Positions 7,943 through 10,380 of a stretch of 64,000 nt of DNA are shown in pieces. The notes beneath the pieces are model-generated. The model saw only the letters and a list, made by a program, of their open reading frames with translations, was not told the origin of the DNA and made no database searches. Within the stretch, counting starts at the first letter, position 1. Every line of letters starts with the position of its first letter. The stretch comes from Xanthostigma xanthostigma (lineage: Eukaryota; Arthropoda; Insecta; Raphidioptera; Raphidiidae). The position numbers were made by a program, and so were the translations under genes. Location: the NCBI GenBank assembly GCA_963575645.1, contig OY754467.1:37135108-37199107 (forward strand), written 5' to 3'.

Positions 7943-8477
7943 TGTAACGATTCAAAACTTATATATTACATTGTACGTAGTTTAGAGGTAATAATTAGAA
8001 TTGGGTATTTACTGTACTTATCTATTTGTTTTGTCACGGCGCGTGTCAATTTTGGTTTTGGCATGTTGAACGACGCAGTGAAATAAAGAAAAAAATATGT
8101 TTTTTGTCTGAAAAAAGGCAGTAGGTTTTAAAAGGTTGAAATAGAATGTATTAAAATAAGCTGTGAAAAAGTGTTGAAATATTTCCTTTAAACCACATCA
8201 GGGAGAATCTGGAGTACTTGGTGATCTACCGATCCAAATTTCTTTTTGCATGTGTCGTTTAATTGATTATTTTTCACTTTGTCAATCCCAATCACATTAA
8301 GATATCAGAAATTTTCTGTGTGTACATTCTAAGATATCTTGTTAACAACAATTTTATAATAAAACATTCAAAATAAATATTTTAAATTGTTTATTAATTT
8401 TATTAAAATTTATTTTAAATTATATTACGAGACGATTACGTGAGCTTATCCGAAAAAGTCCGAAGCTAATCGTTTCA
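7943..8477 (+). repeat. 5' LTR
   Basis: 535 bp. Starts TGTAACGATT and ends AATCGTTTCA, giving a 10-bp imperfect terminal inverted repeat (9/10). It contains an AATAAA-type polyadenylation word (gaaataaag). It differs from the 3' LTR by only three substitutions I can see, plus about 75 bp present here only (about 8270-8350). Confidence 0.9.
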
Positions 8478-8479
8478 TT

Positions 8480-8497
8480 TGGCGCCCGAAAAAAGAC
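8480..8497 (+). promoter_or_regulatory. Primer binding site, tRNA-Lys(UUU) type
   Basis: TGGCGCCCGAAAAAAGAC lies two bases after the 5' LTR. It agrees at 15 of 18 positions with the complement of the 3' end of tRNA-Lys(UUU). The first 11 bases, which anneal to the CCA acceptor, are exact. Confidence 0.82.
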
Positions 8498-8639
8498 TGG
8501 ACCTTGGAAATTATCCAGACTAACACCAAGTGACATTTTGAACATTTTAATACTAATATCAATAATTATTATTAAATCAATATCAATCAATTAACTATAA
8601 ATCAATTTGTTTATATATTATAAAATTTAAGTTATTAAA

Positions 8640-9432
8640 ATGACTACAAAAAGTGAAAAAAAAAGATCGTGCAAAACAAATTCAGGACAAATGGCAGCAA
8701 GTACTAAATGATTTGTTAAGAGATAGTGGAACATAGGTGTGTTTTTATGTATAAGATGTGCAGGAATACATAGAAATCTCGGCGTTCATATTTTGAAAGT
8801 AAAATCAGTGAATCTGGATAAATGGACATGTATCTCAACAGATGGGCAATAGTCGTGTTTGGGCTGTTTACGAAGCAAATTTGCCCGACCATTTCCGGCG
8901 TCCTCAGAACGATTCTAGTTTAGAGTCATTTGTGCGCACGAAATATGAACATAAATAGTATATCGCCAGAGAATGGGTACCTCCGGCACTGCCAAAAGTA
9001 AATTGGGATAAAGAAGACGACAAATCCAGTGTCGAAAACGCGAAAGTTCAAAGCGAAGAAGAAAGTTTCTTTAATCAACCGACTCCGACCGAAAAAGAAG
9101 AGACTAAATTAACTGAAGATGGCATATTGGCATTATACGGCAATGCTCCGATGCAACAAACCACGTTTCAAGCAAATTACGCTCCGACTGGGGCAATTCC
9201 TGGCTTTCAAGTTCAGCAACAAGTATTTCAAGTTCCAGTTTATCCGACAAACTTGCAAGCTTCCTCGCAACCGCAGCAAGCTTTTCAAAACCAATCGACA
9301 TTTGTTTCGCCGCCTCAGAATCAATTTGTGATGGCTCAACAAACGATGCAATCTCAAAACTTCGCTCCTAATACGGGCGCAGCAGTGCCTAATCCCTTTT
9401 ACGCTAATCAACAAGCCCTGCAACAACAGTAA
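8640..9432 (+). pseudogene. SMAP: Intronless SMAP (ArfGAP) retrocopy inside LTR element
   Basis: Derived from stromal membrane-associated protein, an Arf GTPase-activating protein acting in clathrin-dependent trafficking. Reading the + strand across frames gives the SMAP N-terminus from ATG 8640. It then gives VFLCIRCAGIHRNLGVHI (8739 on), with the second zinc-finger CxxC (8748-8759) and the ArfGAP arginine (8772-8774). Next come the YEANLPD..FRRPQ segment, AREWVPP..PKVNWDKE, and a Q/P/F-rich tail ending QQQ-stop at 9430-9432. Lesions: a frameshift in the A-run near 8655; a deletion at about 8722-8727 of roughly 18 codons, removing the first CxxC; a small deletion and frameshift near 8825-8830; and an in-frame TAG at 8956-8958 replacing a Lys codon. 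The zinc finger cannot form, so GAP activity is lost. Introns are absent, implying an mRNA origin. The last part (about 8959-9432) remains open. Confidence 0.85.
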
Positions 9433-9920
9433 CTAAGTAGATAGTCAATTGTTTGTGTAAATGTGCATTCTTATCGGGTGCATAAAGAATTTAAAGCGGA
9501 ATTATGGACAGTCATAGTTCATAATTAAATTTTACTATGACGCGCTATGACTGTGCATAAATTGTGATATGATTTAGTTAAATTTTGTCTTTGAACATCT
9601 AAATGCACAGATCTTTATTTTATACTTTGCAGTAAATATAAACACAATTGTTTTTTTTTTATAGTTGAAAATTCTTCGAACATTTTATATTGTTTTCAGT
9701 TGAAAAGATTGATTAACTAATTTTTTTTTAATTGTTTTGAAACTTTTATGTTTTTTTTTAATATTTTATATAGTACGTGTAAACGAAGATTAGTATTTTA
9801 TTCAATGTGGTAAATCTTCGTAAAATTCCAGGTAGTACATAATTCTCATTTATTTAAGCGGTTCATCCTCCATGCATTTCTTTATTCTAAAATTGTTCGT
9901 ATGAACCGCTGGGGGGGCTA
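9433..9920 (+). other. SMAP-like 3' UTR, hairpin and polypurine tract
   Basis: AT-rich sequence after the stop, presumably the transduced 3' UTR and residual retroelement sequence. An inverted pair agcggttcat (about 9858) / atgaaccgct (about 9901-9910) sits directly before a G7 tract (9911-9917) that abuts the 3' LTR and serves as the likely second-strand primer site. No A-tail marks the end of the cDNA, which argues against simple LINE-mediated retroposition. Confidence 0.6.
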
Positions 9921-10380
9921 TGTAACGATTCAAAACTTTTATATTACATTGTACGTAGTTTAGAGGTAATAATTAGAATTGGGTATTTACTGTACTTGTC
10001 TATTTGTTTTGTCACGGCGCGTGTCAATTTTGGTTTTGGCATGTTGAACGACGCAGTGAAATAAAGAAAAAAATATGTTTTTTGTCTGAAAAAAGGCAGT
10101 AGGTTTTAAAAGGTTGAAATAGAATGTATTAAAATAAGCTGTGAAAAAGTGTTGAAATATTTCCTTTAAACCACATCAGGGAGAATCTGGAGTACTTGGT
10201 GATCTACCGATCCAAATTTCTTTTTGCATGTGTCGTTTAATTGATTATTTTTCACTTAATAATAAAACATTCAAAATAAATATTTTAAATTGTTTATTAA
10301 TTTTATTAAAATTTATTTTAAATTATATTACGAGACGATTACGTGAGCTTATCCGAAAAAGTCCAAAGCTAATCGTTTCA
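9921..10380 (+). repeat. 3' LTR
   Basis: 460 bp, same termini as the 5' LTR. It lacks about 75 bp between 'ttttcactt' and 'ataataaaacattc'. Otherwise nearly identical (three substitutions seen), indicating a young insertion. Confidence 0.9.

Follow-up and report, generated by a model that had tools for sequence, protein, structure and literature searches.

The stretch of Xanthostigma xanthostigma DNA analysed here (the window, 64,000 nucleotides of contig OY754467.1) carries at 7943–10380 a single insertion in which two long terminal repeats (LTRs), a primer-binding site (PBS) and a polypurine tract (PPT) enclose mRNA sequence of the host gene SMAP, in the order LTR, PBS, SMAP mRNA, PPT, LTR, with GTAT on either side. 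Its TG...CA LTRs, PBS, PPT, target duplications of constant length and dispersed copies identify it as a non-autonomous LTR retrotransposon. Spliced host sequence lies between the element's termini and the donor gene is found elsewhere in the genome; this is host-mRNA transduction. Our reading, which we hold with a probability of about 0.88, is that a non-autonomous LTR family was born by retroviral-style transduction of spliced SMAP mRNA into an element of the Ty3/gypsy type. The donor gene, the removal of its first intron, both borders with a gag-pol relative, the deletions shared by the copies, the target duplications and an empty site can all be read directly from the sequence.

The LTRs with TG..CA ends, the PBS, the run of seven G residues and the 4-bp target duplication that the initial annotation had recognized were all confirmed (Table 1). 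Both LTRs have the ends TGTAAC...GTTTCA; over 460 aligned sites they show four differences, besides one gap of 75 bp, and the PBS is one that we take to be of the tRNA-Lys type. The interior was identified as SMAP through Pfam ArfGap (E 1.5e-21) and a best PDB match to SMAP1, a read-through query being used in both cases. The element has no gag-pol of its own, as had been claimed, and its interior is explained by host SMAP together with the termini of the relative. Paralogs of the flanks (14601–14914 and 14913–15188) align straight over the joined flanks with a single GTAT and no element; further downstream some 80 bp differ through a separate indel. The window locus is therefore one LTR-SMAP-LTR insertion.

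The donor was located in a search of 623 Mb of genome in 28 contigs, in which all 70 candidates of an ArfGap profile search were scored. It lies on contig C10 at about 36.186–36.189 Mb (L039, L072), which provides the SMAP source gene with exons that the initial annotation had proposed to look for. Two coding exons were read; they are open and specify 486 amino acids, and the two best matches to the protein are 54% identical (Chrysoperla, Trypoxylus). Three other ArfGap matches (L073–L075, on C11, C13 and C2) were rejected as SMAP copies, being diverged ArfGAPs with 40–51% protein identity. Among the 30 copies studied, all 25 that retain the first splice point lack the donor intron there (GTGAGT...TTTTAAG), precisely removed, and the captured molecule was therefore a spliced mRNA. 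The point itself is deleted in the window copy and four others (5/30), so that splicing, and with it the description of the SMAP copy as intronless, is demonstrated by other copies of the family and not by that of the window. The captured stretch starts in the 5' untranslated region (UTR) and ends in the 3' UTR, without poly(A). Identity to the host gene is 96–97% in two C-terminal coding blocks, 93–94% in the 3' UTR, 89–90% with gaps in exon 2, and lower in the 5' UTR; over the whole interior each copy diverges from the host by 5.0–6.3%.

The genome search with the LTR gave 393 candidate places, of which the best 40 were scored and proved 98–100% identical to the window LTR. From the search with the SMAP interior (best 40 of 59 candidates scored) and the ArfGap profile search at least 45 SMAP-interior places were obtained, to which two fragments, one from the 5' side (L078) and one from the 3' side (L085), were afterwards added from other searches. 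Detailed copy statistics refer to 30 of the 45 listed places (L009–L038), which were read with their flanks and comprise 25 single insertions and five copies in two tandem arrays. Every single insertion (25/25) has matching 4-bp target duplications, and the search for several LTR-SMAP-LTR loci suggested earlier has thus been answered positively. The tandem LTR-SMAP-LTR-SMAP arrays (G000:C6:31542911-31548307 and G000:C5:23662025-23666647) have one outer duplication each, and the outer ends match in both (GTGC on C6, GACA on C5). The interiors of the C6 array are 99.5–99.6% identical to the window copy.

PBS and PPT are present in all 30 copies read, and a few copies show single changes at an LTR end. 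The two LTRs of a single locus differ by 0–11 substitutions over 460–537 aligned sites; since this number is zero in 12 of the 25 loci, some copies are young. One such locus without substitutions, L020 (G000:C1:53772756-53777255), has a 651-bp insertion in its 3' LTR. Two single LTR matches whose flanks were read, L003 and L006, are solo LTRs with duplications. The arrangement is not due to chance: a 19-base word spanning the LTR end and PBS had 33 exact matches in the genome, and a 26-base word with up to three mismatches had 47 (reversed-pattern controls, 0 in each case); the 47 places are 43 listed SMAP copies, one truncated SMAP copy and three gag-pol copies. Similarly, a search with the PPT and LTR start found 48 places: 44 listed SMAP copies, fragment L085 and the three gag-pol copies. 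The fragment L078 (G000:C5:42319700-42323700) is a truncated SMAP copy with a PBS unlike that of the window, followed by an inverted LTR piece; its PBS is presumably nearer the canonical tRNA-Lys form. A FastTree phylogeny of the 30 interiors and the host gene gave the host a long branch among poorly supported nodes, and no conclusion is based on it.

The three gag-pol copies, found through the search with the LTR end and PBS and up to three mismatches, constitute the relative mentioned above. A gag-type frame occurs in all three pieces read, and 4-bp duplications flank all three copies. In the one piece scanned an aspartyl protease scored just above the Pfam cut-off and a Ty3 capsid weakly, below it. 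RVT_1 and RNase H are clear in the single copy, of the three, that was read in this region, with best PDB matches to Ty3; judged by these similarities the relative is of the Ty3/gypsy type, reverse transcriptase having been read in 1/3 copies. A search with its gag region returned the same three places only (3/3 candidates scored). The resemblance between the relative and the SMAP element is confined to the LTRs and to two stretches between them: 24 nt directly following the 5' LTR, which are identical and include the PBS, and ~117 nt directly preceding the 3' LTR. It stops where SMAP begins (8502/8503) and ends (9802/9803).

The initial annotation had supposed that a complete host coding sequence was enclosed, which is not the case. 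Compared with the spliced host sequence, 30/30 copies lack 330, 183 and 365 bp (junctions J1, J2 and J3), and all 30 also carry an 11-nt frameshift deletion, a 3-nt deletion and a stop codon. The first two of the long deletions preserve the frame, while the third takes away the native C-terminus and brings in a stop. In addition some 52 nt are missing from the zinc-finger region of ArfGAP in the window copy, and the splice point is lost with them. Because all 30 copies examined have the same deletions, they would appear to descend from a single founder. The captured frame is broken in every one of them, and the longest ATG-initiated frame among the 30 interiors is 110 amino acids. An open captured frame is a feature of oncogenic retroviruses and is unnecessary for capture of the kind seen in maize Bs1.

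J2 and J3 sit on direct repeats of 12 and 9 bp, as expected from jumps of reverse transcriptase. Host splicing was rejected as the source of J1–J3, as by inspection the deleted stretches have no GT-AG borders and J2 and J3 lie on direct repeats. Two repeats on C10, L041 (G000:C10:11585628) and L042 (G000:C10:794637), each about 1.8 kb and 96% alike, contain a piece of SMAP exon 2 with J1 and without the 11-nt deletion, which suggests that the captured SMAP decayed stepwise. The frames flanking the SMAP piece in these repeats presumably resemble a transposase of the P-element/THAP type.

Based upon these observations we propose that SMAP mRNA was packaged together with RNA of a Ty3/gypsy-type element, and that during reverse transcription the enzyme most likely switched templates near both ends. 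SMAP mRNA would thereby have replaced almost the entire internal region (gag-pol), so that the element retained only its LTRs, the PBS plus a few nucleotides, and the 3'-terminal ~117 nt of the interior, which include the PPT, while skipping between repeats within SMAP may have produced the shorter payload. Because recent copies are without gag-pol, the product would have been multiplied in trans, either by Gag-Pol of the three-copy relative lineage or by that of a closer parent since lost. The cis sequences presumably keep the element mobile, and SMAP is most plausibly dead cargo. There is no sign of a functional SMAP-derived protein today, and functional cargo at present was rejected on account of the frameshift and stop in all 30 copies read.

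Several results weigh against this account. Exact short patterns across the junctions match in 26–30 of the 30 copies and thus fail in some (J2 in four, J3 in two, the 5' junction in one and the 3' junction in two); nonetheless the alignment of the three long deletions is the same in 30/30 copies. J1 is without clear microhomology. The LTR of the gag-pol relative is only about 88% identical to that of the window (466/529); it therefore qualifies as a relative but not as a demonstrated parent, and the genome searches yielded no gag-pol copy nearer to the SMAP element. The autonomous partner anticipated earlier is accordingly represented by a gag-pol element with related LTRs, not with the same ones. 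Lastly, the differences between the host and most copies are distributed 10/2/15 across the first, second and third codon positions (p 0.008), which is some evidence against a payload that was non-functional from the outset. Synonymous change on the host side could explain this skew.

An alternative source of an intronless SMAP piece is a processed pseudogene made by a long interspersed nuclear element (LINE), which would have landed in a gag-pol element, with subsequent loss of gag-pol by deletion on either side of it. By inspection neither poly(A) nor a second target duplication is present at the SMAP edges; the 3' end of SMAP lies 323 bp before the only AATAAA, a candidate signal, in the host stretch read beyond it, and both edges abut the termini of the relative, so that two exact deletions would be required. 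We regard this origin as very improbable. A LINE retrocopy that received its LTRs later was rejected, inspection showing no poly(A) and no duplication of its own around SMAP. Solo LTRs such as L003 and L006 do occur, and one might imagine that two independent LTR insertions flanked a SMAP retrocopy by chance. This arrangement, which the initial annotation had named as grounds for refuting its reading, is refuted by the matching duplications at 25/25 single loci, PBS and PPT in 30/30 copies and the empty site; LTRs do enclose SMAP at many places.

A different question is whether SMAP has a use, as a truncated ArfGAP that helps the element carrying it (in particle traffic, for example) or the host. 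The multiples of three removed at J1 and J2, the absence of the 11-nt frameshift from L041 and L042 in the presence of J1, and the 10/2/15 skew might be taken in its favour. It is nevertheless quite unlikely, given the frameshift and stop in 30/30 copies and the even distribution of segregating sites among copies over codon positions (38/29/35, p 0.54). Moreover, 13 of the 27 differences between the host and most copies alter an amino acid or create the stop, and at six of these 13 all 12 other insects compared (12/12) side with the host. It is also conceivable, though improbable, that the element originally made a truncated ArfGAP from SMAP in frame, which aided its spread, for instance through vesicle traffic of its particles, and lost it only once the family was established; the SMAP pieces of L041 and L042, with J1 and no frameshift, would then be relics of that stage.

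In acute transforming retroviruses the replication genes are replaced by a spliced cellular mRNA, and the missing proteins are needed in trans. The SMAP element resembles them in carrying a spliced cellular mRNA in place of replication genes and presumably in its dependence on proteins in trans. Unlike them it is a germline insect relative of Ty3/gypsy with non-functional cargo and almost no leader. A terminal-repeat retrotransposon in miniature (TRIM) measures about 1 kb or less in all and has a short interior without coding sequence; with an interior of 1436–1511 bp and LTRs mostly of about 535 bp the SMAP element is excluded from this class. Among the closest systems is PbTRIM of the red harvester ant, likewise an insect non-autonomous LTR family with 4-bp duplications and solo LTRs; it is of small size, its interior does not code, and no autonomous relative is known in that account, whereas the SMAP element has a host-mRNA interior and a gag-pol relative (PMC3532108).

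Maize Bs1 is an LTR element that has transduced gene segments, among them one of an ATPase (PMC13317346, PMC5408686). Like it, the SMAP element carries host gene segments of which none is full-length; unlike Bs1, with segments of three host genes, it has almost its whole interior filled by one spliced mRNA, and it has dozens of copies and a gag-pol relative in the same genome. Captured genes are also described in LTR elements of rice and sorghum (PMC3726574). Crocodilian endogenous retroviruses (ERVs) captured KIT-ligand or nectin3 and, as here, represent an animal retroelement lineage in which a host mRNA was captured and then multiplied (PMC4299795). As described there, however, they retain viral genes, with nectin3 in place of env and with no domain lost in the KIT-ligand case, and their reading frames are open and bear the marks of purifying selection, whereas the SMAP element has lost gag and pol and carries a broken gene. 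Retroposition mediated by LTR elements in metazoans (Tan et al. 2016, via PMC5408686) involves, like the origin proposed here, template switching between LTR-element RNA and cellular mRNA; the products described are retrocopies, while the SMAP product became an amplifying family.

The SMAP element belongs with host-mRNA transduction by LTR elements as seen in Bs1, rice and sorghum, and the crocodilian ERVs. The initial annotation had considered such capture typical of acute transforming retroviruses and seldom reported in insects. The latter agrees with our finding no insect family of LTR-captured host mRNA among the papers listed in the literature searches, in which subscription journals were poorly covered; the former is too narrow in view of the plant and crocodilian cases (PMC13317346, PMC4299795). 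What is new is the host group, the near-total replacement of gag-pol by one mRNA, its amplification, and the presence of donor and relative in one assembly.

Table 1. Features of the LTR-SMAP insertion and of its empty-site paralog (window positions)
Feature	Position	Strand	Remarks
5' target-site duplication	7939–7942	+	GTAT; matched by single GTAT in empty-site paralog
5' LTR	7943–8477	+	535 bp, TGTAAC...GTTTCA; from direct-repeat comparison
Leader	8478–8502	+	First 24 nt identical to gag-pol relative; contains PBS 8480–8497
Captured host SMAP mRNA	8503–9802	+	Internal deletions, broken frame; from alignment to C10 host gene
Parts of SMAP insert	5' UTR 8503–8639; ATG 8640	+	Followed by ArfGAP remnant, C-terminal tail and part of 3' UTR
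Junction J1	9008–9009	+	330 bp of host coding sequence gone, in frame; no GT-AG borders by inspection
Junction J2	9361–9372	+	On 12-bp host repeat TTCGCTCC(A/T)AAT; 183 bp gone, in frame
Junction J3	9422–9430	+	On 9-bp host repeat AACAACAGT; 365 bp gone including native C-terminus and stop
TAA stop	9430–9432	+	Follows J3
3' segment in common with gag-pol relative	9803–9920	+	94.9% over 117 nt; PPT at end, G7 at 9911–9917
3' LTR	9921–10380	+	460 bp; without 75 bp found in 5' LTR
3' target-site duplication	10381–10384	+	GTAT
Paralogous empty site	14601–15188	+	Same flanks, one GTAT (14903–14906), no element

Elsewhere the window contains a direct duplication (29246–33337 and 36908–40518) with a spacing of about 7.2–7.3 kb and aligned blocks 94–99% identical. 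Within it lie twin open reading frames (ORFs; 32139–32795 and 39331–39972) with no Pfam match; four window ORFs searched against Pfam gave zero matches. A tandem repeat with a 120-bp period occurs at two direct places (6712–7251 and 12974–13513) and one inverted (63073–63302).

The family documents almost completely how, in nature, a host mRNA turned into a mobile unit, a single genome displaying the donor, a gag-pol relative, both capture borders, the internal deletions, an empty site and an amplified family that is partly young. It becomes testable how much LTR-element sequence mobility needs in cis: the candidate minimum consists of the LTRs with some 25 nt following the 5' LTR and some 118 nt preceding the 3' LTR, provided that no captured bases contribute. 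Testable as well is whether the spread of an element is promoted or hindered by the host-like payload that it carries.
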